This document shows positions 4,788-50,473 of a stretch of 64,000 bases of DNA, in pieces (within the stretch, counting starts at the first letter, position 1; every line of letters begins with the position of its first letter). Both the position numbers and the translations under genes were made by a program. The stretch lies in the NCBI RefSeq assembly GCF_036248255.1, contig NZ_CP109178.1:1488001-1552000 (forward strand), written 5' to 3'. The notes below the pieces were generated by a model, which saw only the letters and a list, made by a program, of their open reading frames with translations, was not told where the DNA came from and did no database searches. The DNA is from Streptomyces sp. NBC_01717. Its GTDB lineage: Bacteria > Actinomycetota > Actinomycetes > Streptomycetales > Streptomycetaceae.

Positions 4788-5702
4788 TCAGGCTCCCGTC
4801 GGCGGCTGGGGGGCGGGAATGCCGCAGCTCTCCGGTTCCGCCCCGATGCCGCCGTCCCAGTCATGGGCGATCTCCTCGGCGGACCAGCCGCCGTCACGCA
4901 GCATCACCCCCTTCTCCTTGGGATGAGACCACAATGCGAGGCGGTCTCCGCCGGCGCCGATGGCCTGTCCGGTCACACCGCTGGAGGCGTCGGAGGCGAG
5001 GAAGGTGACGAGCCCGGTGACGTCGTCGACCGTGCCGAGTCCTTCGTCCTTGCGCATCCAGTCCGGCAGGGGCGCACCGGTACGTTCAGCCTCTTCGATG
5101 GCGGGCGCGAAGACCGGAATGGTCTTGGTCATCTCGGTGGCGGCGACCGGGATGACGGCGTTTACGGTGATCTGGGCCCGGGCCAGTTCCATGGCCCACG
5201 TGCGCGCCATGGCCACGATGCCCGCCTTGGCCGCCGCGTAGTTGGTCTGTCCAAAGTTCCCGCGCTGCCCCGCAGGCGAGCCGATCAGAATGATGCGTCC
5301 ACCCTCACCCTGCTCGCGCATCCGCACAGCTGCTGCCCGGGCACAGGTGAAGGTGCCGCGCAGATGGACACGCACGACGTCGTCGAAGTCGTCGTCGGTC
5401 ATCTTCCACAACACCCGGTCGCGCAAGATGCCGGCATTGGTGACGAGGACGTCCAACCGCCCGAAGTGCTCCACCGCCGCGGAGACCAGCTGTTCGGCCG
5501 CGGCGGTGTCACCGACGGCAGCCGTCACGCCGACAGCCTTGCCGCCGGCCGCTTCCACCGTCTTGACCGCAGCCTCGACCGCCTCCTCTTCTACGTCGTT
5601 GACGACAACGGAGGCTCCGGACGCGGCAAGCGCCCGAGCATATGCGAGACCCAGCCCGCGTCCGCTGCCGGTGACGACGGCGACCTTCCCGATCAAGTCC
5701 AT
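4788..5702 (-). CDS. SDR-family oxidoreductase (3-hydroxyacyl-CoA dehydrogenase-like)
   Basis: I place the start at ATG 5702 (GAAGGG upstream), not at the longer in-frame start near 5771, because the classical SDR N-terminus begins here and the longer version would read through the operator repeat. The 304-residue protein has the NAD(P)-binding TGSGRGLG (11-18), NAG at 89-91 and the catalytic Ser142-Tyr155-Lys159. A C-terminal extension of about 50 residues resembles the dehydrogenase part of multifunctional beta-oxidation enzymes. It heads the leftward operon and is one base from the amidohydrolase. It is probably controlled by the MarR protein encoded divergently. Confidence 0.92.
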   Translation of the reverse strand: MDLIGKVAVVTGSGRGLGLAYARALAASGASVVVNDVEEEAVEAAVKTVEAAGGKAVGVTAAVGDTAAAEQLVSAAVEHFGRLDVLVTNAGILRDRVLWKMTDDDFDDVVRVHLRGTFTCARAAAVRMREQGEGGRIILIGSPAGQRGNFGQTNYAAAKAGIVAMARTWAMELARAQITVNAVIPVAATEMTKTIPVFAPAIEEAERTGAPLPDWMRKDEGLGTVDDVTGLVTFLASDASSGVTGQAIGAGGDRLALWSHPKEKGVMLRDGGWSAEEIAHDWDGGIGAEPESCGIPAPQPPTGA

Positions 5703-5718
5703 GACTACCGACCCTTCA

Positions 5719-5771
5719 TTGACAGGATTCCTGGCAAGCGCCAGTTTTTCGATCAACAGGAATCCTGTCAA
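5719..5771. promoter_or_regulatory. Paired palindromic operator between SDR operon and marR
   Basis: A perfect 15-bp inverted repeat is formed by TTGACAGGATTCCTG (5719-5733) and CAGGAATCCTGTCAA (5757-5771), separated by 23 bp. Each arm is itself an 11-bp palindrome, CAGGAWTCCTG, which is the shape of a MarR dimer site. TTGACA, a consensus -35 hexamer, is embedded in each outer half and points inward on both strands. I infer that the MarR protein binds both sites and represses both directions. Confidence 0.75.
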
Positions 5772-5843
5772 TGGGCTAGAGTGGCTCTTCTACACGGGGC
5801 ATGCCACGAGCGACCCTCAGGGCAGCAACACCGGGAGGACGCC

Positions 5844-6299
5844 GTGCCGAAAGCAGTCACACCGACGGCCCGCCAAGAGGAGAAGGACCTTCCGTCGCTC
5901 CTCTACCTGGTCAAACGCACCGAACTTGTCGTCCGGGCCCGGCTGGACGAAGTGCTCAAGCCGTCTGGCGTGACCGCGCTGCAGTACACGGCGCTGACCG
6001 TGCTCCATCGGCACGACGGACTGACGGCCGCCCAGCTCGCGCGCAGCTCATTCGTCACCGCCCAGTCCATGGCGGACATGGTCCGCACCCTGGAAGCCTG
6101 CGGGTACGTCGTCCGCCGCGCCAATCCCACCAACCGGCGGGAACTCCTCATCGGCTTGACCGAGCTCGGCCGCCGGCTCCTTGCGGACCATGAAGAACCC
6201 GTACGCGAGCTGGAGCGGCGAATGACGGACGGCCTCACCCCGACGGAAACCGCCCAACTACGCAACGCGCTCACCCACGCCTGGCATCAACTGTCCTGA
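5844..6299 (+). CDS. MarR-family transcriptional regulator
   Basis: The start is GTG 5844, five bases after GGGAGG (5833-5838); upstream frame is open but has no ribosome site. The 151-residue product has the MarR winged helix: LQYTALTVLHRHDGLTAAQLARSSFVTAQSMADMVRTLEACGYVVRRA, a recognition helix and the beta-wing NPTNRRELLIGLTELGRRLL. MarR dimers commonly repress adjacent catabolic operons and are released by an aromatic or acyl ligand. It is divergent from the SDR/amidohydrolase operon, with a double palindrome in between, so autoregulation together with the operon is likely. Confidence 0.92.
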   Translation: MPKAVTPTARQEEKDLPSLLYLVKRTELVVRARLDEVLKPSGVTALQYTALTVLHRHDGLTAAQLARSSFVTAQSMADMVRTLEACGYVVRRANPTNRRELLIGLTELGRRLLADHEEPVRELERRMTDGLTPTETAQLRNALTHAWHQLS

Positions 6300-6325
6300 C
6301 CCCGCTCCTGCACGTGTGCGGGGTC
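6298..6325 (+). terminator. Hairpin after marR
   Basis: GACCCCG (6298-6304) pairs perfectly with CGGGGTC (6319-6325) around a 14-base loop, starting inside the marR stop codon. There is no T-run, as is usual in Streptomyces, so it is a probable rather than certain terminator. Confidence 0.5.
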
Positions 6326-6479
6326 CTGCAGCACCGCAGGACATCGAAGCCGCAACCTTCGCAGACAACGGCCACTGCCTCACCGGTTCTCCACGCGGCC
6401 CGCACCGGCGCGAACAGCTCTTCTTCGCTTTCCTGCCGAGCCGTTCACCCGTGATGGCAAAACCGTCGGTCACCGTCAA

Positions 6480-7223
6480 GCGACCTCGGGGCTGACCATT
6501 CCCTGCGTGTCGATGACGCGACCTGCATGGGTGGCTGTTGGAAGTCATCGAGCTGCTGTCGGCCCGCTCTCCATACCTGGACCGCGCCCTGAAGGAGATC
6601 GCCGGGAAGGGTGGAGCCGTCATGCTGCTCGACGGCACCCTCGTGCGCACCCGCAGACGCACCGGGAACGAGAGCCGGCCGAACTACTCGGGCAACCACC
6701 ACTGCTGTTCCTCGCCCTGACCGACAAGCACTGCAACCTGGTGTGGATCTCGGCGGCGAAGCCGGGGCGCTCCAGCGTTCACCACCGCCCTCCACAAACA
6801 GGATCAGCGCCCAACCACGGGAAGGCCGGCCTCAGGGTGTTGGCCGACCTCGGCTTCACCGGCCTGGACGACGACACCGACGACCCGGTCATCATCACCG
6901 GCCGCCAAGCCACCCGAGGCCACCCGGTCACCGCCGCTCAGAAAGACGCGAACCGACGGGTGAGCCGCGAACGCGCGCCGAACGAGCACAGCTTCGCCGA
7001 CGTGCAGAACTGGCGGATCCTCACCAAGATCCGTATGAATGCCCGACACGCGACCACACTGCTGCGGGCCCTGCTCGTACTGACGAACGCGGAGATCAGA
7101 CGCCGACCCGGCGTGGCCGATGATCTCCGCGAGACGATCACCGCAGCCACCAGCGTCAGTACACCCTCACCAGCTCACGCGAGCCCCGTGACCTGCAACT
7201 TCAGGATGAAAAGTTCCCATTGA
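6480..7223 (+). pseudogene. IS5-family (DDE) transposase remnant
   Basis: Pieces of one transposase lie in two frames. Around 6520-6720 the frame reads WLLEVIELLSARSP, then AVMLLDGTLVRTRRRTG, which holds the first catalytic Asp, and NYSG. From about 6700 to 7223 another frame reads LLFLALTDKH, WISAAKPGRSS, LADLGFTGLDDD, VIITGRQATRGH and SRERAPNEHSFADVQNWRILTKIR, which includes the catalytic Glu region. A frameshift near 6700 and loss of the N-terminal half make it inactive. The sequence between marR and 6480 holds no other recognisable gene. The family is known from many Streptomyces insertion sequences; no intact terminal repeats could be identified. Confidence 0.8.
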
Positions 7224-7226
7224 GCC

Positions 7227-7823
7227 TCAGGGAGCCGCGAGCAGCCCTTCCCCGTCGGTGGAGATGTCGCGCAGGAGCCGGTCCAGGTGCACGTGCACAA
7301 CGCTGACAAGGTCGAACGCCCTCCCACTCGCCAGCCACTGAAGCCGGATGCCCGCGTCGACCGCGAAGCACTCGCGGGCCAAGGCCACGTCGTTCACGCC
7401 CGGCTTGAGTTCGCCGGACTCGGAACCGGCGCGCAGGTTCGCGGCCAGCCGACGGACACCGCTCTCCTGCCACCCGGAGAAGAGGGCGTGCGCAGGATGG
7501 TCCGGGCTGATCGCCTCGGCAGCCAGTACGACCTCGAGCTCAATCATCCCGGGCTCGCGCAGATTGTCCTCGATGGCCTGCAGGTAGCTGCGGAAGACCT
7601 CCCTGGCGCCGGCGGAGGCTGAGACTTGCATCCAACGCTCGTCCTGACGCTGGAACCAGTACTCCACGACGGCGAGAAGCAGCTGCTGCTTGTCGCGGAA
7701 GTGGTGCAGCAGCCCGGCGTCGGTGATCCCGGCGTCTTCGGCGACCCGCGCCAGCGAGGTCCTGCGGTACCCATCGCGCCCGAAGCGGTTCAGGGCGGCG
7801 TCGAGGATCTGCGCGCGCCTCAT
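7227..7823 (-). CDS. TetR-family transcriptional regulator
   Basis: This 198-residue protein has a canonical N-terminal TetR helix-turn-helix (residues 4-50: ILDAALNRFGRDGYRRTSLARVAEDAGITDAGLLHHFRDKQQLL) and an all-helical ligand domain. The start ATG 7823 has an AGGGCAG just upstream. It lies alone between a dead transposase and the tRNA-Pro region, so its target is probably not an adjacent operon and its ligand cannot be guessed. Its 3' end is only 3 bp from the end of the transposase remnant, which suggests that the IS insertion or deletion removed former neighbours. Confidence 0.9.
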   Translation of the reverse strand: MRRAQILDAALNRFGRDGYRRTSLARVAEDAGITDAGLLHHFRDKQQLLLAVVEYWFQRQDERWMQVSASAGAREVFRSYLQAIEDNLREPGMIELEVVLAAEAISPDHPAHALFSGWQESGVRRLAANLRAGSESGELKPGVNDVALARECFAVDAGIRLQWLASGRAFDLVSVVHVHLDRLLRDISTDGEGLLAAP

Positions 7824-8083
7824 CTGCCCTGTCGCGTAGCCGGCCGCATTGCGTGAAGCACGATATTCGTCATGGCTCCACTACAACACCTGGGAGGACC
7901 GGATCCACGGCAGCACCACCTCGCGATCATTGCCACTGCTACGGCACCGCACCTGGCCTCAGCCGGCGAACCAGAACGTGGGCACGAACACAGGCCAGTG
8001 CCAGTCGGGGTTTGGAGGTGCGCGGCCGTGGTGGCATCTGCCCGCAGAGAGCGGTAGATCTCCTCAGGTGCGAAAGGCGTGAC

Positions 8084-8129
8084 GCACCTTGACTGGGTCA
8101 AGGTGCGCTTCAAATCGGTCAAGTGCGCT
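8084..8129. repeat. tRNA-like fragments: 10-bp hairpin and tRNA-Pro match
   Basis: GCACCTTGAC (8084-8093) and GTCAAGGTGC (8097-8106) form a perfect 10-bp stem with loop TGG that mimics the tRNA-Pro anticodon arm. GTCAAGTGCGCT (8118-8129) is identical to bases 8265-8276 inside the tRNA gene. These look like partial tRNA copies of the kind left at attachment sites. Confidence 0.45.
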
Positions 8130-8160
8130 GGTCCCCAACTGGTCCCCAACTGGTCCCCAG
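8129..8160. repeat. Three tandem 11-bp repeats (TGGTCCCCAAC)
   Basis: The unit TGGTCCCCAAC occurs at 8129-8139 and 8140-8150, with a partial third copy at 8151-8160. It lies between the tRNA-like fragment and the tRNA-Pro terminator region. Short tandem sites next to a tRNA would suit recombinase arm-binding sites, but they may equally be part of the decayed reading frame. Confidence 0.55.
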
Positions 8161-8202
8161 AAGCGGCCGAAGGGCCGCTTCAGATTACCTCTGAAACGGC
8201 CC
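8160..8202 (-). terminator. Hairpins downstream of tRNA-Pro
   Basis: Two alternative hairpins overlap. GAAGCGGCC (8160-8168) pairs with GGCCGCTTC (8173-8181), and the 13-base arms 8172-8184 and 8190-8202 pair with one mismatch. The second resembles the perfect hairpin behind the other tRNA-Pro copy (AACGGCCC...ACCTGCGAC shared), so it is probably the tRNA terminator. Confidence 0.5.
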
Positions 8203-8223
8203 CTGACCTGCGACTCTTACGAG

Positions 8224-8297
<74 letters not shown>

Positions 8298-8347
8298 CTG
8301 CGGTTCCCCCTGGCGTTCCCAGGCGGCCGCGCAGGACAAACATTACC

Positions 8348-10981
8348 TCACTCCGCCGACCGGATCGACGCCCGTGCCTGGTGGGCGCGGGTGGCGAGCG
8401 ATTCGGCGCCGCACGCGGTGGCCAGTTTCTGCGCCCGGGCGAGCTCCTTCGGGGAGCGGATCGCGATGCCGTAGTCGAAGCGGGCCAGGGCATGTTCGTA
8501 CGCGGACGGGGAGGCCTCCAGGTGCCGGACCGCGTCGGCGAGCAGGTGCTGGGCGTCCTCGGGGCGGGCGAACAGCGAGACGCAGCGCAGCGCCTCACCG
8601 ATCGCGGTCTCCGTGCCGAACCTCTCCGCGTGCACCCGGGCCGAGGTCGCGAGTTGGGCGGCGCGGGCCGGGTCGTCGTCGGCCAGGGCGCGGGCGAGAT
8701 CGCCGGCCCAGGGGGCCCAGATGCCGTTGAACCTGCCACGCGGTTCGAGTGCCTGGCCGGCCGCTTCGAGTTCGGTGACGGCCTCCTTCGTACGGCCTTC
8801 GGCGAGCAGGAGACGGCCCCGGACGCACGGCGCGTCGGGCAGCACCATGGCGCTGGGGTAGGGCAGCCCGAAGTGGTACCTGTCAGCTATCGTGCGCGCC
8901 TCGGAGACGCGGCCGCGGGCCAGCAGGGTGTCGATGAGCAGGCAGGCGGCGTCCCAGTGGACGGGCAGACCGCTGCCGACACGGTCGGCGAGCCGCAGCC
9001 CTTCGCGCAGAAAGCCCTCGGCCTCGGCCAGTCGGCCGCGACGGCGGTGGACCAGGCCGAGGAGGGTGTGCGCGAATGCGAGGTGGGCGCCGCTCCAGCC
9101 GGAGATCTCGAAGGCGCGCACTGCCTCGCCGAAGAGTTCCTCGGCCCGGTCGAGCTGGTCGGTGAAGGCATAGGTGATGCCGACCAGGGTGGGGAACTCG
9201 AAGCCCCATTCGGTGTCGGTCCAGCCGAGACCGCGGGCGGGGCGGCCGTCGACCAGGGCGCGTTCGCAGAGGTCGATGACGAGTTGGGAGTTCTCGCCGC
9301 GCAGCATGGCGTCGAACGCGCGGATGGTGAGCAGGGCGCGTTCGGCGTTGTCCTTGCCGGTGAGGTGGTCGGCGTTGCGGGCGAGCCGACGGGAGCGGCC
9401 GGGACCGTCGTCCTCGGCGGCCTGCATGCCCTCCCACATGAAGTGCGCGGCCTGGAGGCGCATCTGACCTGGGCCGGGGGCGGTGCGTCCGGCCTCGGCG
9501 GCGAGGGCCAGTGCGGCTTCCTTCAGCTGGTTGTTGTGGGAGAGGGCCGCGGCCAGCCGGAAGGTGGCGTCGACCCGTACGTCGTCGTCGAGTCCGGGCA
9601 GATCGAGGGCGGCGCGCAGATGCTGGACGGTGGTGGGCGGGGAGCTGAGCAGCGTGGCGCAGCCCAGTTCGTACAGCAGCGTGGCGCGCACCTGATGGCG
9701 CGGCGGTTCCCGCAGGGCTCGCTCCAGGCAGCGGCGCGCGGCCTCGGGTGCGCCGACGGCGAGGTGCTGGCCGGCTGCTTCACGGAGTTGCTCGACCAGC
9801 TCCTGGTCGTCGTCCGGGTGGACTTCGAGGAGGTGGCGGGAGGCCGCGGCGGCGCCCAGTCCGGCCCTGGCGATCGCCCAGGCCGCCCGGCCGTGCATGG
9901 CGGTGCGGGTGGCCGGCGGGATGGAGCGGTAGACGGCGGTGGCGATCAGCGGGTGGACGAATTCGAGCGGATCGAAGCCGCTGACGATACGGGCGTCGCG
10001 CAGCCGCGCGGTGCAGTCGGCGGCCTCGGCGGGGCTCATCCCGGCGAGGGTCGCGGCCAGGTCCTGGGAGATGTCGGTGCCGAGGACGGCGGCGGCCCAG
10101 GCGAACCGGTTGGCGTTGGTGCCGAGCCGTTCGAGCCGGGCGACGAGTCCGCTGCCGCGGGCCGAGGCGCCGAGTTCGCGCAGCAGCCCGGCCGACTCCT
10201 CCAGTGGCGGCAGTTCGCGGTCCTGCACCTTGGCGACGAGTTCGACCGCCTCGTACGGGTTGCCGCCGGTGACGGCCCACACCTCGCGGCAGAACGGATC
10301 GTCGGCGTGGTCGCCCAGCGCCGCCCTGACCAGTTCGGCGGTGGCGTCGGGGGTGAGAGCGCGCAGCGCGACCCGGACCTGCGCCGGGTGTCCGCCGCCG
10401 TTGCCACCCTCCGCCTTCCGCGCCGCCAGCTCGTCCGGGCGGTGCGCCTGGACGACCAGGACGGGCAGTTCGCCGAGGCGCGCGGTGAACGAGGCCAGCC
10501 AGGCGAGGGATTCACCGTCCGCCCAGTGCGCGTCGTCGACGATCAGCAGCAGCGGACGGTGGCTCAGCCGTGAGGCGAGCCGCGCGACGACCCAGTCGAT
10601 CCCGTCCCGCACACCCTGCGGATCGGGCTGCGGGCCGGTGGGCTCGGCGAGCCCGAGGGCGGGCGCGGCGATCTCGTACCAGGCCCCGAACAGACTCCTC
10701 ACCTCGTCGGGCGGGAACTGGTCGAGGGCGGGCTGCAGCAGTTGACGTACGACGTGGAACGGTACGGACGTGACCGTCTCGCCGCCGCGCGCGGACCAGA
10801 CGGTGCAGCGGTCCGCCGCCAGGGTCTCGATCTCGGCGAGCAGTGCGGTCTTACCGATGCCTGCCTCGCCACTGAAGATCAACAGCCCGCCGACCGCCTG
10901 GGCGCCGCACAGGGCATCCACGGCTTGTGCGGCGGCAGCGAGTTCCGGATCGCGCTCGTACAGCGGCCGGGACGGCTTCAT
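8348..10981 (-). CDS. AAA ATPase resembling a LAL-type regulator but lacking the LuxR HTH
   Basis: Start ATG 10981 is chosen for its GGGGAGGG ribosome site; the product has 877 residues. It opens with a STAND-type ATPase: Walker A GEAGIGKT at 38-45 and Walker B LLLIVDDAHWAD around 145-153. A long alpha-helical TPR-like region follows (for example DRAEELFGEAVRAFE and LAEAEGFLREGLRLAD). This is the architecture of large LuxR (LAL/MalT-like) activators, which carry a C-terminal LuxR helix-turn-helix. Here the protein stops at ATRAHQARASIRSAE, about where that domain would begin, so DNA binding is not evident. It may act through a partner or be a truncated regulator. Its target is unknown. Confidence 0.85.
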   Translation of the reverse strand: MKPSRPLYERDPELAAAAQAVDALCGAQAVGGLLIFSGEAGIGKTALLAEIETLAADRCTVWSARGGETVTSVPFHVVRQLLQPALDQFPPDEVRSLFGAWYEIAAPALGLAEPTGPQPDPQGVRDGIDWVVARLASRLSHRPLLLIVDDAHWADGESLAWLASFTARLGELPVLVVQAHRPDELAARKAEGGNGGGHPAQVRVALRALTPDATAELVRAALGDHADDPFCREVWAVTGGNPYEAVELVAKVQDRELPPLEESAGLLRELGASARGSGLVARLERLGTNANRFAWAAAVLGTDISQDLAATLAGMSPAEAADCTARLRDARIVSGFDPLEFVHPLIATAVYRSIPPATRTAMHGRAAWAIARAGLGAAAASRHLLEVHPDDDQELVEQLREAAGQHLAVGAPEAARRCLERALREPPRHQVRATLLYELGCATLLSSPPTTVQHLRAALDLPGLDDDVRVDATFRLAAALSHNNQLKEAALALAAEAGRTAPGPGQMRLQAAHFMWEGMQAAEDDGPGRSRRLARNADHLTGKDNAERALLTIRAFDAMLRGENSQLVIDLCERALVDGRPARGLGWTDTEWGFEFPTLVGITYAFTDQLDRAEELFGEAVRAFEISGWSGAHLAFAHTLLGLVHRRRGRLAEAEGFLREGLRLADRVGSGLPVHWDAACLLIDTLLARGRVSEARTIADRYHFGLPYPSAMVLPDAPCVRGRLLLAEGRTKEAVTELEAAGQALEPRGRFNGIWAPWAGDLARALADDDPARAAQLATSARVHAERFGTETAIGEALRCVSLFARPEDAQHLLADAVRHLEASPSAYEHALARFDYGIAIRSPKELARAQKLATACGAESLATRAHQARASIRSAE

Positions 10982-41892: not shown

Positions 41893-42681
41893 CTGGACTT
41901 CCCCGATCTGCTGCGGCTGATCGACGAACGATCGACCGCCTTTCGCGCCGCGGTCGCCTCGGCGCCCAGCCTCGACGTGCAGGTGCCCACCTGCCCCGAG
42001 TGGACGCTTTTTGATCTGGTGCAGCACCTGGGCGAGGGGCGCCGCTCCTGGGCCGCCACCATCGCCGCAGGGCCTGCCGCCACGGCCAAGTCGGCATCGG
42101 AGGGCGCCCCGGCCGCGCCTCGGGAGCGCGAGGCGCTGCTGGCCTGGTCGGCCGCATCGACGCAGGAACTGCTGGACGCACTGCGGGAAGCCGGCCCGGA
42201 TCGCGGTTGCTGGACGTGGTGGGGTATGTCGCAGTCGCCGCAGACGTGCGGTGCCGTCGCCCGGCACCAGCTCCACGAGGTCGCGGTGCACACCTACGAC
42301 GCCCAGGTCACCCTGGGCGCCCCGCAGCCGCTGCCGGACGAGGTGGCACTCGACGGTGTCGACGAGTTCCTGTCCACCTGCTGTGCAACGACGAGCGCCT
42401 GGCCGCACGAGCCCGCTGCCGTCGACATCCACGCCACCGAGGGCCGCTCCTGGCACCTCTCGCTCTCCGTCGACGGCGCACGGATCGCCCGACTCCCCAC
42501 GCCCGGCACGATGCCCGCCACCGCTGCCGGCGAGGGCCCGGCCGCGGCCGACGCCGCTCTCCGGGGCACGGCCGGTGAGCTGGTCCTGGCCCAGTACGGC
42601 CGTATTCCGGTGGACTCCCTGAAGCTCGACGGCGACCGACGTCTGCTCGACCTGCTCTGGGCCTGGAACCCGGACGAGTAG
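41893..42681 (+). CDS. Maleylpyruvate-isomerase-family mycothiol-dependent enzyme (CTG start)
   Basis: The frame is closed by TGA at 41866-41868, and no ATG, GTG or TTG occurs before the GTG at 41977, which is already inside conserved sequence. A CTG at 41893 follows GGAGAGG (41878-41884) by eight bases and gives the expected N-terminus (M)DFPDLLRLIDERSTAFRAAV, so CTG is the likely start; 262 residues. The metal ligands expected for this DinB-like fold are His45 in LVQHLGEG and Glu129/His133 in LHEVAVHTYDA. The family uses mycothiol as cofactor or substrate; the small molecule handled here is unknown. It stands alone downstream of tetR. Confidence 0.87.
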   Translation: MDFPDLLRLIDERSTAFRAAVASAPSLDVQVPTCPEWTLFDLVQHLGEGRRSWAATIAAGPAATAKSASEGAPAAPREREALLAWSAASTQELLDALREAGPDRGCWTWWGMSQSPQTCGAVARHQLHEVAVHTYDAQVTLGAPQPLPDEVALDGVDEFLSTCCATTSAWPHEPAAVDIHATEGRSWHLSLSVDGARIARLPTPGTMPATAAGEGPAAADAALRGTAGELVLAQYGRIPVDSLKLDGDRRLLDLLWAWNPDE

Positions 42682-45001: not shown

Positions 45002-45601
45002 GTGCCCGTAGTCCGCCACACGACGAGCGCCCTCGGCGCCCTGTCCACAAGCGTCCGTCTCACCGTCTTCGGCGCGGTGGTGGCGGCAGCCGCCGCCCTG
45101 CTCCCCGCCGCTTCCGCCTCGGCTGCAGAACCAGGCGTCGGCGGTTACACCGACCCCTCGTACGCCTCCGCGTGTACCTTCCACCGCTACGGCGAGGGCG
45201 AGACGCCGCCGCTCTCCCTGTTCGGCGTCGACCCGCTGTGCGTGGAGTACGCCAAGCGGGACATCACCGTGACCAACGGCGGCGCGGCACGCTTTCTGCT
45301 GGCCGAGCCGGCCCGCTTCGCGCTCGCCGTACCGGCCTGCCGCTACTGGCAGTTGGACCACTGGAGCGTGCAGGCCACGGCCGGTGGAACCGAACTGGTC
45401 GGCTGGGACGGCAGTTACTGGTTCGACAAGGCGGAGGGCAGCGCGGCGGCGAGAGTACGCAACATCACCGTCGCCGGGCAGCCCGCGCGGGCCGAGGACG
45501 CCGCGAAGGCGATCCGGCCGTACGACGCCCGGCTCGCCGACGCGCTCGTGCGCGACGCCGCGGGTGTGATGGTGCGGCTGCCGGTGAGCGGGCTGTGCTG
45601 A
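45002..45601 (+). CDS. Secreted protein of unknown function (first gene of GMC operon)
   Basis: GTG 45002, eight bases after GAAGAAGG, gives 199 residues; a GTG at 44948 is possible. A signal peptide spans about residues 1-41 (STSVRLTVFGAVVAAAAALLPAASASA). The mature part begins EPGVGGYTDPSYASACTFHRYGEGE and has five Cys. Four of these (ACTF, DPLCV, PACRYW and the C-terminal LC) may form disulfides outside the cell. I do not recognise a family. It overlaps the next gene by seven bases, so it is co-translated with a Tat-exported DUF5987 protein and a GMC oxidoreductase and is probably an extracellular partner of them. Confidence 0.85.
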   Translation: MPVVRHTTSALGALSTSVRLTVFGAVVAAAAALLPAASASAAEPGVGGYTDPSYASACTFHRYGEGETPPLSLFGVDPLCVEYAKRDITVTNGGAARFLLAEPARFALAVPACRYWQLDHWSVQATAGGTELVGWDGSYWFDKAEGSAAARVRNITVAGQPARAEDAAKAIRPYDARLADALVRDAAGVMVRLPVSGLC

Positions 45602-46317
45602 GCGAACCACCCGCACGTCCCACTCGGCGCCGGCTGCTCGTCGGGCTGACCGCCGCCGTCGCCGCCCTGCGGGCAGGGGAGCTGACCGCCGAGGCCGCGC
45701 CTTCGGCGCGTTCTGTGCCCGAGTCTGTCCCGGTGGATCGGGCCGGGCTGCAGCCCGCTTCCCTCGCGCTGCCCGACCCGACGACCGCCACGCTGGAGGC
45801 GTTTGCGGACACCATGGTCCCGGGCGAGAAGCGGTACGGCGGTGACGTGGTGATCGCCGGGGCGGCCCCCGGTCCCGGCGCCGTACAGGCAGGGGCCGTC
45901 GAGCTGCTCAACCTTCCCGAACTCGGCATCGGCGTACTGCTGCCCGAGCTGGCACTGCTCGTCAACACCCGGGCCCTCGCCTATGCGGCCACCCACGGCC
46001 GGATCCTGCTGCCCACTCAACCTCCCTTCGTCGCCCTGCGGTTCACCGACCGCACCGCGCTCGCGGGAGAGCTGCTCACGCCCGGCGCCCCGGACCGGCA
46101 GCTGTACGTGCTGCTCGCGCTCTTCGCCGCCGCGGCCTTCGACACCGCAGCCCACCTGCACACCGCCGTGGCCATCCGGCAACGCCACCCTGGCCTGGCC
46201 TGGATCGGCTTCCCGGCGCCCGGCGCCGACGGACTGTGGCGCTTCCCCGACTACTCGTACGGCCGAAGGCTCGCCTCCGAGCACCCGCTCACCACCCGCG
46301 GAGGGCACCCCGCATGA
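45595..46317 (+). CDS. DUF5987 family protein with Tat signal (putative small oxidoreductase subunit)
   Basis: GTG 45595 overlaps the previous stop by seven bases; 240 residues. A twin-arginine signal (TRRRLLVGLTAAVAAL) directs folded export. The mature part has TLEAFADTMVPGEKRYGGD, VELLNLPELGIGVLLPELALLVNTRALAYAA and AAAFDTAAHLHTAVAIRQRHPGLAWIGFPAPGADG. Size, Tat signal and the TLEAFADTMVPG start are reminiscent of the small third subunit of gluconate-2-dehydrogenase-type GMC complexes, which chaperones export of the flavoprotein. I infer the same role here because the next gene is a GMC oxidoreductase lacking its own signal. Confidence 0.85.
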   Translation: MLSEPPARPTRRRLLVGLTAAVAALRAGELTAEAAPSARSVPESVPVDRAGLQPASLALPDPTTATLEAFADTMVPGEKRYGGDVVIAGAAPGPGAVQAGAVELLNLPELGIGVLLPELALLVNTRALAYAATHGRILLPTQPPFVALRFTDRTALAGELLTPGAPDRQLYVLLALFAAAAFDTAAHLHTAVAIRQRHPGLAWIGFPAPGADGLWRFPDYSYGRRLASEHPLTTRGGHPA

Positions 46318-47909
46318 GCGTCACCGAACGCACCGACGTGCTGGTCATCGGCAGCGGCTTCGGGGGCGCCATCCCCGCCTACCATCTGGCCGCGGGTGGC
46401 GCCGAGGTGGTGATCCTGGAACGCGGACCGCACCTCACCGCCCCCGACTTCACCCACGACCTGCGTCTGGGCAGCTATACCCGGATCGTCGACCTCGTAC
46501 AGGGCGACGGCATCACCGTCGTCGCCGGGAACTGCGTCGGCGGGTCCAGCGTGGTCTACTTCGCCGCTTCGCTGCGCGCTCCAAGCTTCGTCTTCGACCG
46601 CCGCGGCAGTCTGGGCCACCGCCTGTGGCCCTCGACCCTGACGCGCGCGGCCCTCGACCCGTGGTACGACCGGGTCGAGGAGGCTCTGCCCGTCGCCCAG
46701 CAGAGCTGGGACCAAGTCCCCTACCCCGGAGGGCTGTTCGCTGCGGCGTGCGCCCGTGCGGGCCGCACCTGCAACCCTGCACCCGTCGCCGTCGACCTGG
46801 CCCGCTGCACCAACTGCAACTGGATGCTGAACGGCTGCCACTTCGACGCCAAGCGCTCCATGCTGCTGAACTACCTCCCCGCCGCGACCGCGCACGGCGC
46901 CGAGATCCGCCCCCTCCACGAGGCACAGACGATCGCGCCTGCCACCACACCCGGTTACCGCTACCGCGTCTCGTACACGCAGCTCGACGCCGGCGACTAC
47001 CGGCTGCCGGTCGGCGTGGGGGCGATCGAGGCCAAGACCGTGGTGCTGGCCGCGGGCGCTCTGGCCACCCCCGTGCTGCTGCAGCGCTCGGCTCCCCTGC
47101 TCGGCGGTGTCCCGCAAGCCGTCGGGCGCTACTTCTCGGGCAACGGCGACCGCGTGTCCATCGCCGACGTCGACGAAGGCAAGGTGCGCGACCTGCTCGG
47201 TCTCGAGCGCGCCCCGGGCATCCCGTACCAGGGCTTCCCCATCGGGAAGCCCATCGGCTCCATGTCGTACGACCGGCTCGACCCGGCGACGGCGGAGTTC
47301 ACCCGTTTCTCCCTTCAGCAGATCTACTTCCCCGGCATCACCGACCTGCTGGCCCAGGCCACCGACACCCCGGCGACGAGCTGGTTCGGCGTCCGCAAGA
47401 AGGAGATGCGGGCACGCTGGCCGTCGTGGCTCTCCGTGCTCGCCATGACCGAGGACGACAACGAGGGCGTCTTCGGCCCGCCGCCGCCCACCGGAAGCTC
47501 GACGCGCGTGGCCACGTCGCTCTGCCTGTCCACGCTCTCGTACCGGCCGACGGCGAACACCCTGCGCGGCTGGGCCGCCGCGGATGCCGAGGCCCGCGCA
47601 GTGCTGGAGCGCGACGGTCTTGCGCGGGTGCGGCCCTGGAGCGAGAACGCCGCCGGGTCCGTGAGCGCACACCCTCTCGCCTCCTGCCGGATGGGTGACG
47701 ACCCCGCCACCTCGGCGCTCGACGAACGCGGCGAACTACGAGGCCATCCCGGCCTGTTCGTCACCGACGGTTCGGCAGTACCGACCTCGCTCTGCGTCAA
47801 CCCCTCGCTGACGATCGCGGCGCTGGCCGAACGGGCCTGTCCCGGCATCGTGGAGAGCACCGCCGAGGCAGGCGTGCGCGCACGGTACGGGGCCCCCGCG
47901 CCCCGGTGA
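46314..47909 (+). CDS. GMC-family FAD oxidoreductase
   Basis: ATG overlaps the DUF5987 stop (ATGA); 531 residues. The FAD-binding GSGFGGAIPAYHLA lies at 13-26, with GGSSVVYFAAS around 80, VVLAAGALATPVLLQRS around 245, and the active-site His in SAHPLASCRMGDD with Asn in CVNPSLTIAALAE near the end. An internal cluster CTNCNWMLNGCHFDAKRS holds three Cys, a feature of GMC dehydrogenases rather than plain oxidases. There is no signal peptide, so it may be exported with the Tat-tagged DUF5987 partner. The substrate could be an alcohol, sugar or sterol-like hydroxyl. Confidence 0.92.
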   Translation: MSVTERTDVLVIGSGFGGAIPAYHLAAGGAEVVILERGPHLTAPDFTHDLRLGSYTRIVDLVQGDGITVVAGNCVGGSSVVYFAASLRAPSFVFDRRGSLGHRLWPSTLTRAALDPWYDRVEEALPVAQQSWDQVPYPGGLFAAACARAGRTCNPAPVAVDLARCTNCNWMLNGCHFDAKRSMLLNYLPAATAHGAEIRPLHEAQTIAPATTPGYRYRVSYTQLDAGDYRLPVGVGAIEAKTVVLAAGALATPVLLQRSAPLLGGVPQAVGRYFSGNGDRVSIADVDEGKVRDLLGLERAPGIPYQGFPIGKPIGSMSYDRLDPATAEFTRFSLQQIYFPGITDLLAQATDTPATSWFGVRKKEMRARWPSWLSVLAMTEDDNEGVFGPPPPTGSSTRVATSLCLSTLSYRPTANTLRGWAAADAEARAVLERDGLARVRPWSENAAGSVSAHPLASCRMGDDPATSALDERGELRGHPGLFVTDGSAVPTSLCVNPSLTIAALAERACPGIVESTAEAGVRARYGAPAPR

Positions 47910-47921
47910 AAGGAATCCCTC

Positions 47922-48860
47922 GTGAACTCGCTCTACCCGCCACGGATGACCGGCCGTCCAGGGCGTCTCGAAGTCTGGTACGCGACGTTGACCGATCCCC
48001 GTACCGGGACCGGCGTGTGGATCCACCACGAAGTGGTGGCGCCCAAGCACGGCGGCCCGGCCCGGGCACACGGCTGGATATCCGTCTTCCCGCCGGACGG
48101 ACCGCCGGTCACCGAGCGGTTCGGGGTCCCGGACTCCCCGCCACCCCAGGGCGAGGCGTACTTCGAGGTGCCGGGGGTACGGGCAACGCCCCGGCTGCTG
48201 GAGGGCACCGCGGGCGCGATCACCTGGCGCCTGACGGTCACCGGCGGCGGAGAGCCCCTCTACACCTTTCCACGCTGGTCCTGGCAGCGTGAACTGCTGC
48301 CCGCCGCCCAGATCGTGCCTGCCCCCGACGCCATTTTCGACGGGGAACTCGTCGTCGGAGAAAGGCGGTTCACCCTTTCCGACGCCGTCGGAGGGGTCGC
48401 CCGGATCGCCGGTCACGGCAATGCCCAACGGTGGGCGTGGCTCCATGCGGGTCTCGGCGGCGGGGACGTACTGGAAGTGGTGGCCGCCGTCGCCCGCCGT
48501 CCCACGATGCGGTGGCTGCCACCGCTGCCCATGCTTCAGTTGCGGATCGGTGGCACGGACTGGCCGCGCGACCCGTTCCTGACCGCGCCACTGCTGCGCG
48601 CACGGATCGGGCTGCCCGACTGGTCGGTCGCAGGTGGCACCGCGCGGCGCAGGGTACGGATCGATGTGACCCAGGACCCGGCCGACTGTGTGTCGCTCTC
48701 CTACACCGACCCCGACGGAGCGACCGCCACGTGTACCAACACGGAACGTGCCACCGTCGACGTGATCGTCGAACGCCGCACCGGGCTGCACCGCTTCGAG
48801 GTGGAACACCGCTGGCATCTGGATCGCACGGGTCACGCGGAGGTGGGGACGCGACCGTGA
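47922..48860 (+). CDS. Lipocalin-like protein (CrtC/AttH-type fold suspected)
   Basis: GTG 47922 lies 12 bp after the GMC stop, behind GAAAGGAA; 312 residues, no signal. The sequence is beta-rich, with RLEVWYATLTDPRTGTGVWIHHEVVAPKHGGPARAHGWISVF in the first half and GVARIAGHGNAQRWAWLHAGLGGGDVLEVVAA in the second. This pattern (two halves, GHGxAQRWAWxHA) reminds me of the tandem-lipocalin fold of CrtC/AttH-type hydratases and tocopherol-cyclase-like proteins. If so, it would bind or transform a hydrophobic molecule. It closes the operon and may process the product of the GMC enzyme (inference). Confidence 0.75.
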   Translation: MNSLYPPRMTGRPGRLEVWYATLTDPRTGTGVWIHHEVVAPKHGGPARAHGWISVFPPDGPPVTERFGVPDSPPPQGEAYFEVPGVRATPRLLEGTAGAITWRLTVTGGGEPLYTFPRWSWQRELLPAAQIVPAPDAIFDGELVVGERRFTLSDAVGGVARIAGHGNAQRWAWLHAGLGGGDVLEVVAAVARRPTMRWLPPLPMLQLRIGGTDWPRDPFLTAPLLRARIGLPDWSVAGGTARRRVRIDVTQDPADCVSLSYTDPDGATATCTNTERATVDVIVERRTGLHRFEVEHRWHLDRTGHAEVGTRP

Positions 48861-48985
48861 GCACGGCCCGCCGCCCCCGTGACGCGGACCGCGCACCCAC
48901 GCCCCGGACGAACCCACCGAGTCGTTCGCCGCGCAGACCTCGGTCCAGGTGTTTCAAGAGACCGGGTTAGTCTGACCGTCGTACC

Positions 48986-49062
48986 GGACACGGGGTGCCC
49001 TACCCGAGGGCTGAGATCACACCCGTCGAACCTGAACCAGTTCGCACTGGCGGAGGGATGTC
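48986..49062 (+). promoter_or_regulatory. TPP riboswitch (THI element)
   Basis: The conserved THI-box sequence is easy to read: ACACGGGGTGCCC, then GGGCTGAGATCACACCCG, GAACCTGAACCAG, and TTCGCACTGGCGGAGGGATG. The CTGAGA and ACCTGA(A)CCAG segments contact the pyrimidine and pyrophosphate of thiamine pyrophosphate. GGAGGG at 49052-49057 at its 3' edge is also the ribosome site of the next gene, so TPP binding should sequester it and block translation of the thiamine operon. Confidence 0.96.
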
Positions 49063-49066
49063 TTTC

Positions 49067-50473
49067 ATGCCTTTGACGCATGTTTCCGGCGGGCTGCCCG
49101 CCGACGGCCGGCAGACCGTCTTCGACGGACGGATGCCGGCGGCCCCCGGCGACCTCCGCGTCGAGACGCACGGCATCGATCCGGTCCCCGAGAGCAACCG
49201 CTACGGCGGTCCCGGGCGCCTGTTCACCGTGTGGTTCGCTCCCAATCTGACCATGACCGGCGTATTCACCGGCACCGTCGGCATCGCCCTCGGCCTGGAC
49301 TTCGCCACCGCGCTCGCCGCCGTCGTGCTGGGAACGGTGATCGGCGCGGTGCCCACCGCCTACCTGGGCACCTGGGGGAGCCAGACCGGCGCCGGGCAGC
49401 TGCCGCTGGCCCGGCTCGCCTTCGGCCGGGCCGTGACGGTGCCGGGCATCCTGCAGTGGCTGTCCTCGGTCGCCTGGGACGCGCTGATCGGGCTGTTCGG
49501 CGGGGACGCGCTCGCGCGGCTGTGCGGCTGGCCGTTCTGGCTCGGCGTGCTGGCCATGATGCTGGCCCAGGGCGCCCTCGGCGTCCTGGGCTACGAGGCC
49601 ATCCACCGGCTCCAGATCGTGATGACCTTCGTGCTCGCCGCTGCGTTCGCGCTGATCGCGTGGCGGCTGCTCGACGGGGTCCACCCGGTCGGCACGGGCA
49701 CCGCGCACGGCGCCGATCAGGCCGGCGCTTTCGTTCTCACCAGCACCATCGCGCTGAGTCTGAGCCTGTCCTGGGCCCCGTACGCCAGCGACTTCAGCCG
49801 CTATCTGCCGCGCACCACCTCGCGCCCGCGCATGTTCTGGTTCACGCTTCTCGGCCTCGTGGTGTCCTTCGTGGCCGTCCAGGCCCTCGGGTTGCTGGGC
49901 GCGTCCGTGCTGACCGACCAGACCGCCGCAGGGGTGGACAAGCTGCTGGGCGGTGGGGTGTTGGGCGCGTTCGGGCTGCTTGCCGTGGCGCTGGCTGCGC
50001 TCTGCAGCAACGCCATGAACGACTACAGCGGTTCCTTGGCTCTGCAGACCGTCGGCGTGCGCCTTCCGCGCCCGGCGGCCGCCGCTCTCGCCGCCGTGCT
50101 CGGCTTCCCTCTGGTGCTGTGGATGCACGCTGCCGATACCACTGCCCGCTTCCAGAACGTGCTGCTGTTCGTCGGCTACTGGATCCCCGGATTCGTGGCG
50201 ATCGTCATCGTCGACTGGATCGCACGGGCCCGGGCACGGGGAGGTGCGGCGATCGACCTCGCCGCCGAGACCGCCCGGCCGCACTCCGGATGGCCCCCGT
50301 TGCTGGCATTCGCCGTCGCCTTCGCCGCGGCCGTGCCGTTCATGGACACCAGTCTGTACGTGGGCCCGGTGGCGGCCGCCCTGCACGGCGCCGACCTCTC
50401 GTACTACGTGGCGTTCCTCGTGGCGCTCGCCGTCTACGCACCGCTGCGGCTACGCCACCGCCCGCAGGACTGA
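49067..50473 (+). CDS. cytX: NCS1-family permease, probable thiamine-precursor (HMP) transporter
   Basis: ATG 49067 lies 10 bp after GGAGGG; the ATG at 49058 is too close to the ribosome site. The 468-residue protein has about 12 membrane segments and NCS1 features ([65 protein letters not shown]). Purine-cytosine permeases have this fold. Control by a TPP riboswitch and linkage to thiM and thiE point to CytX, the predicted hydroxymethylpyrimidine transporter. It brings the pyrimidine half of thiamine into the cell for salvage. Confidence 0.92.

Follow-up and report, generated by a model that had tools for sequence, protein, structure and literature searches.

A candidate exported DUF5987-GMC flavoenzyme and its putative secreted partner in Streptomyces sp. 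NBC_01717

A four-gene operon of Streptomyces sp. NBC_01717 is best read as encoding an exported two-subunit GMC flavoenzyme, probably an iron-sulfur dehydrogenase, together with a secreted partner protein. We put the probability of this reading at about 0.6. The argument is built from sequence, namely from gene order and coupling, family assignments, conserved cysteines, leader motifs and the linkage of the secreted partner (g1) with leader-bearing DUF5987 proteins. From these features we infer a complex of the DUF5987 protein (g2) with the GMC protein (g3), Tat export of the latter, a cluster, a type of substrate, a route for electrons and a role for g1.

The operon and its products

The operon occupies positions 45002-48860 of the window (the whole 64,000-nucleotide stretch that was analysed) and consists of four plus-strand open reading frames without internal stops. 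The first, g1 (45002-45601, +; GTG start, 199 aa), encodes a protein of unassigned family with a Sec-type leader by eye. It overlaps by 7 bp with g2 (45595-46317, +; GTG start, 240 aa), the DUF5987 small subunit, which in turn overlaps by 4 bp with g3 (46314-47909, +; ATG start, 531 aa), the leaderless GMC flavoenzyme and putative catalytic subunit. After a gap of 12 bp follows g4 (47922-48860, +; GTG start, 312 aa), an accessory protein with a weak likeness to Tocopherol_cycl and leaderless by eye. Genes, positions, overlaps and gap are all as the original prediction had them. Upstream of the operon are an EamA-type transporter and a LysR regulator. Downstream, a TPP riboswitch (48981-49075, +; Rfam RF00059, 69.1 bits) precedes an NCS1-type transporter and marks the start of a different unit; the two ORFs after the transporter resemble ThiM and ThiE by eye, as in a thiamine unit separate from the operon. 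No CxxCH cytochrome motif was found in g1-g4 or the six neighbouring genes, and therefore no electron acceptor is visible there. At 41977-42681 (+) the window also encodes a mycothiol-dependent maleylpyruvate isomerase-like protein, and a family of the same superfamily (TIGR03084) recurs near many leaderless DUF5987-GMC loci. Its presence near this operon is probably due to chance.

The g2 protein matches DUF5987 (PF19449) at 255.9 bits against a cut-off of 27 (E 2.5e-76), is the sole DUF5987 copy found in the 10.2-Mb genome and contains no cysteines. Its N-terminal region carries TRRRLLVGLTAAVAAL, the motif of a twin-arginine-type leader. The g3 protein matches PF00732 (73.7 bits against a cut-off of 23) and PF05199 (67.9 against 24.6), and all 19 aligned rows share its His453 and Asn496. 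Since the FAD-binding GxGxxG motif of g3 starts at residue 13, there is no room for a leader. The earlier descriptions of a Tat-tagged DUF5987 protein and of a GMC flavoprotein without its own signal thus both hold. The literature searched contained no paper on DUF5987.

Two forms of the DUF5987-GMC pair

A DUF5987 alignment was scanned against genome contigs, which yielded 151 encoding stretches, and the best 80 of the 151 were kept; being seeded on DUF5987, this sample is silent on GMC genes without it. A GMC gene was found directly downstream of DUF5987 in all 80 loci. With the window included, an ATGA or GTGA (or TTGA) stop-start overlap joins the two genes in 80 of 81 pairs, the exception being L063, a recurrence that is more than chance. 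DUF5987 and GMC are therefore a fixed pair and form a single unit. At two loci (L022 and L046) the GMC frame is split into two overlapping ORFs, through either a sequencing error or a broken gene.

The pair exists in two forms, one with a leader and g1 and the other leaderless near enediyne genes. Among the best 80 of the 151 stretches, 21 loci contain g1 and 59 do not. When neighbouring genes were clustered and the cluster representatives scanned for families, the recurrent ones were polyketide synthase, DUF1702, UnbV, thioesterase, flavin reductase and cytochrome P450, which are the usual content of enediyne clusters. At least one enediyne marker lies near 54 of the 59 g1-free loci (48 with at least two of the five markers, 6 with one, 5 with none); none was found at the 21 g1-containing loci, nor was an enediyne marker cluster found in the 18 kb around the window operon. 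Among the 120 DUF5987 relatives listed, 9 bear the JGI name enediyne biosynthesis protein E8, whose GMC neighbour goes by the name E9.

An HMM-anchored script called a leader wherever DUF5987 was preceded by an RR motif and then a hydrophobic stretch. The 86 loci scored comprise 24 with g1 (the 21 named loci, the window, L108 and L111) and 62 without (the 59 named loci, L109, L113 and L114). A leader was called in 23 of the 24 g1-containing loci, and in the remaining one, L028, it was seen by eye, the RR and hydrophobic stretch being present but no usual start codon lying in range. Only two of the 62 g1-free loci had a leader. One is L068, which comes from a Binataceae MAG and falls outside the enediyne clade, with no g1 detected on its short contig; the other is L109, where g1 is present in the genome but on a different contig. 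Among the 54 g1-free loci with enediyne markers there was none.

DUF5987 was present in 17 of 246 Streptomyces genomes and g1 in two, the window's genome and G161. DUF1702 was present in all five Streptomyces tested that have DUF5987 without g1, and was not found in the window's genome or G161. A phylum draw of 396 genomes gave g1 in 4 and DUF5987 in 5, the window's genome having both. As the genome searches for g1 and DUF5987 scored 8 or 13 candidates per genome, their absences are not absolute, and genomes surveyed may coincide with named loci, so that the two sets of counts may overlap.

The g1 gene is upstream of DUF5987 in 21 of the 80 loci, that is, in every named locus that has it. A protein search gave 336 relatives at E<=1e-3. 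The four cysteines of g1 (58, 80, 113 and 199) are invariant or nearly so across 78 aligned rows, no Pfam or NCBIfam family was matched and the g1 model matched no known fold. Judged by its leader and conservation, g1 appears to belong to a well-conserved secreted family without annotation. Of the earlier label "secreted Cys-rich protein" the first word agrees with the Sec-type leader, and the second was generous for four cysteines. Further linkage is seen on plasmid NZ_CP109361.1 (L146), where positions 5063-10747 are annotated in the order hypothetical protein (g1), DUF5987, GMC. This is a 64-kb linear Streptomyces plasmid on which the three genes adjoin IS6 and IS5 family transposases; the three-gene unit may therefore move. 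In the remote genome G617, small subunit, GMC and g1 are consecutive, and a g4 relative follows 3.2 kb further downstream; the small subunit scores 18.8 bits for DUF5987, below the cut-off of 27. In G299, also remote, g1 is divergent from the small subunit and GMC, and in G509 g1 and the DUF5987-GMC pair are on different contigs. Apart from g4, no other clustered family occurs in more than three of the 21 g1 loci. The predicted linkage of a secreted partner is thus borne out by the 21 of 80 loci, the plasmid unit and the two remote genomes in which g1 adjoins the GMC or small-subunit gene.

The fourth gene fared less well. It had been called lipocalin-like and placed in the extracellular set, but a Pfam scan of the window g4 gave nothing up to an E of 10, and 11 of its 25 aligned relatives match Tocopherol_cycl (PF14249; precomputed on listed relatives) at E up to 1, the best at 0.0035. 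Nine of the 21 g1 loci have a g4 relative no more than about 10 kb away, compared with 0 of the 59 g1-free loci; six of these nine relatives are downstream, two are upstream and divergent, and one is weak (67 bits, L079). Thus g4 is optional, and the idea of all four genes as one conserved set was dropped for this reason. Leaderless by eye, its product is probably cytoplasmic, and at most a cytoplasmic accessory. Five relatives (P0156, P0166, P0174, L037 and L041) have an extra N-terminal stretch of about 150 residues. The literature searched contained nothing on a GMC oxidoreductase with a tocopherol cyclase in Streptomyces.

Cysteine site and probable remote kinship with gluconate dehydrogenases

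The g3 gene has a cysteine site at 46806-46853 (+), Cys165-x2-Cys168-x6-Cys175-x4-Lys180. A six-frame scan detected the pattern C-x2-C-x6-C-x-F-x-A-K in 81 of 81 loci, and the GMC alignment shows it in 80 of 81 rows, the L022 row covering the C-terminal part only. For comparison, 149 actinobacterial genomes were searched for Gluconate_2-dh3 proteins; 31 gave matches, and 29 ORFs were recovered. In the alignment the g3 site falls, column for column, on the Cys loop of the GMC proteins linked to Gluconate_2-dh3; a three-Cys-Lys pattern is present in 22 of the 29 loci and absent from 7. In the main DUF5987 group the cysteines stand at 0, +3 and +10, with Met at +6. In L108, L109 and several Gluconate_2-dh3-linked GMC proteins they stand at 0, +6 and +10, and the remote G617 protein has four, at 0, +3, +6 and +10. 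According to its crystal-structure paper, the catalytic subunit of BcGDH, the FAD glucose dehydrogenase of Burkholderia cepacia, holds a 3Fe-4S cluster on Cys212, 218 and 222 and has a His/Asn catalytic pair (PMC6719666). The site of g3, with Met at the place of the middle ligand, may likewise hold an iron-sulfur cluster, with Cys165, Cys168 and Cys175 as proposed ligands and one ligand changed.

The small subunits point in the same direction. The same paper describes BcGDH gamma as a Tat hitchhiker that is required both for folding and for secretion (PMC6719666). Aligned by hhalign, DUF5987 and Gluconate_2-dh3 reached 93.9%, rising to 97.7% once three remote members were included; with leaders cut off, the values were 94.7% and 96.7%. 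The controls, made up of four pairs of unrelated alignments, five column shuffles and one reversal, stayed at 0.0-0.3%; these percentages are pairwise and not calibrated on a database. In a direct scan, PF13618 (Gluconate_2-dh3) did not match g2 even at an E of 10 and matched nothing in the window's genome, and the g2 model (pLDDT 78.5) had no fold match in the Foldseek or VIA lists, BcGDH gamma included. The original suggestion that DUF5987 is a gluconate-dehydrogenase-type hitchhiker subunit is nevertheless favoured by the profile homology, the leader in the g1 class and the fixed, coupled pairing with GMC.

Two GMC trees were built, the first leaving out twelve rows under 380 residues and the second including 26 of 58 leaderless rows drawn at random with 21 exported rows (L068 included). 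In the second tree the 26 leaderless rows formed one clade (100/100), and the exported rows fell into more than one group outside it, that is, paraphyletic to the enediyne clade. A single exported clade was not rejected by the AU test (p 0.246). The leaders of L108, L109 and L068, which all lie outside the enediyne clade, make it simpler to take the exported form as the older one, by a parsimony argument over few and partly long branches. A wider and more tentative view, to which we give somewhat less than even odds, is that DUF5987-GMC proteins are a distinct iron-sulfur branch of GMC dehydrogenases with a relocated ligand, that the exported form is older and has g1 as its secreted working partner, and that enediyne clusters recruited the pair, dropped leader and g1, and kept DUF5987. 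If this were true, the hitchhiker subunit would be needed for folding or cluster maturation beyond export, and enediyne assembly would use an unrecognised iron-sulfur flavoenzyme. Since the pair is leaderless in enediyne clusters, export cannot be the only job of the small subunit, and the two forms of one pair amount to a natural experiment that could separate hitchhiker export from a role in folding or maturation.

Proposed mechanism, alternatives and known systems

In the mechanism proposed, g3 would fold in the cytoplasm with FAD and a putative iron-sulfur cluster on Cys165/168/175, g2 would bind it, and the twin-arginine leader of g2 would carry the folded pair out via Tat. Outside the cell the enzyme would oxidise an alcohol, perhaps a hydrophobic one, and electrons would pass through the cluster to an acceptor. 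The g1 protein would exit separately by Sec and work with the exported enzyme, and the leaderless pair of enediyne clusters would be a related form retained inside the cell. This offers a mechanism both for DUF5987 and for a pair present in many enediyne clusters.

Alternatively, g3 could be a secreted oxidase like cholesterol oxidase, using oxygen to oxidise sterols or other alcohols and producing H2O2, with structural cysteines and g2 only as export chaperone. The best PDB sequence matches of g3 are indeed cholesterol oxidases (1coy; E 1.1e-15 with a single sequence, 1.3e-24 with a profile), with which it has the His/Asn pair in common. However, it scores 89.1 bits against a cut-off of 850 for the NCBIfam cholesterol oxidase (NF058674), and its invariant Cys loop, which aligns with that of Gluconate_2-dh3-linked GMC proteins, has no counterpart in the printed cholesterol oxidase alignments. 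Overall we consider this unlikely. Slightly less probable still is that g1 is an independent secreted protein sharing the transcript, with no working link to the enzyme; the unlinked g1 of G509 would fit, as would the fact that no function or fold is known for g1, but g1 precedes g2 in all 21 named g1 loci, recurs on a plasmid and adjoins the GMC or small-subunit gene in G617 and G299, which speaks for a link.

The leader might also anchor or target g2 alone. The GMC protein would then work in the cytoplasm like its enediyne counterpart, whether or not g2 accompanies it, while g1 acts by itself outside. The pair lacks a leader in the enediyne class, so the GMC protein, itself leaderless, can evidently work without export. 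Against this stand the joint presence of leader and secreted g1 in 24 of 24 loci and the remote homology of g2 to hitchhiker subunits, which make such an arrangement quite improbable. It is very improbable that the operon is the remnant of an enediyne cluster or of some other secondary-metabolite cluster, or a portion split off from one, and serves to modify a small molecule. In favour of this, the GMC protein shares 58-64% identity with nine enediyne-type rows of the alignment, the name enediyne E8 is given to DUF5987 relatives, and a hydrophobic substrate is hinted at by the g4-like genes found near some loci; yet DUF1702 is absent from the window's genome and G161, as opposed to its presence in 5 of 5 tested g1-free Streptomyces, no enediyne marker occurs at 21 of 21 g1 loci, and window-type GMC rows lie outside the enediyne clade (100/100). 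The exported two-subunit enzyme with g1 as partner remains the preferred reading.

Two findings considered in advance as damaging to that reading apply in part. GMC relatives standing mostly without the other three genes is true of g1 and g4 in this DUF5987-seeded sample but not of DUF5987, which is always present; a purely cytoplasmic GMC enzyme is presumably the case for most relatives, which are of the leaderless enediyne type, but not for the window's class. The statement that no described system of this composition was known overlooked the leaderless pair of enediyne clusters, and because of that pair the composition is not wholly undescribed. The g1 partner family, on the other hand, was not met in the papers searched, and the searches gave nothing relevant on enediynes with a GMC oxidoreductase and nothing on SgcE9 or like names.

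Among known systems, the mycofactocin dehydrogenase MftG has the GMC fold in common with g3, which scores 55.9 bits against its cut-off of 400. The enediyne E8/E9 pair has the same two families, gene order, stop-start overlap and Cys motif, but lacks leader and g1 and sits with polyketide synthase, DUF1702 and UnbV genes, with which the window pair is not encoded. The glucose dehydrogenase BcGDH and complexes of the gluconate 2-dehydrogenase type have in common with the window a leader-bearing small subunit and a leaderless GMC subunit, with remotely homologous small subunits, a Cys-rich loop at the same aligned place and the His/Asn pair. They differ in that the window small subunit is a DUF5987 protein unrecognised by PF13618, in the spacing of the cysteines (C-x2-C-x6-C in place of Cys212/218/222 of BcGDH), in a subunit disulfide for which g2 offers no cysteine, in a multi-haem cytochrome c subunit that has no equivalent among g1-g4 and the six neighbouring genes, and in the absence of a secreted partner like g1. 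By these sequence comparisons the window system appears to be a hitchhiker-GMC variant, related to gluconate dehydrogenase complexes but not a member of them as defined.
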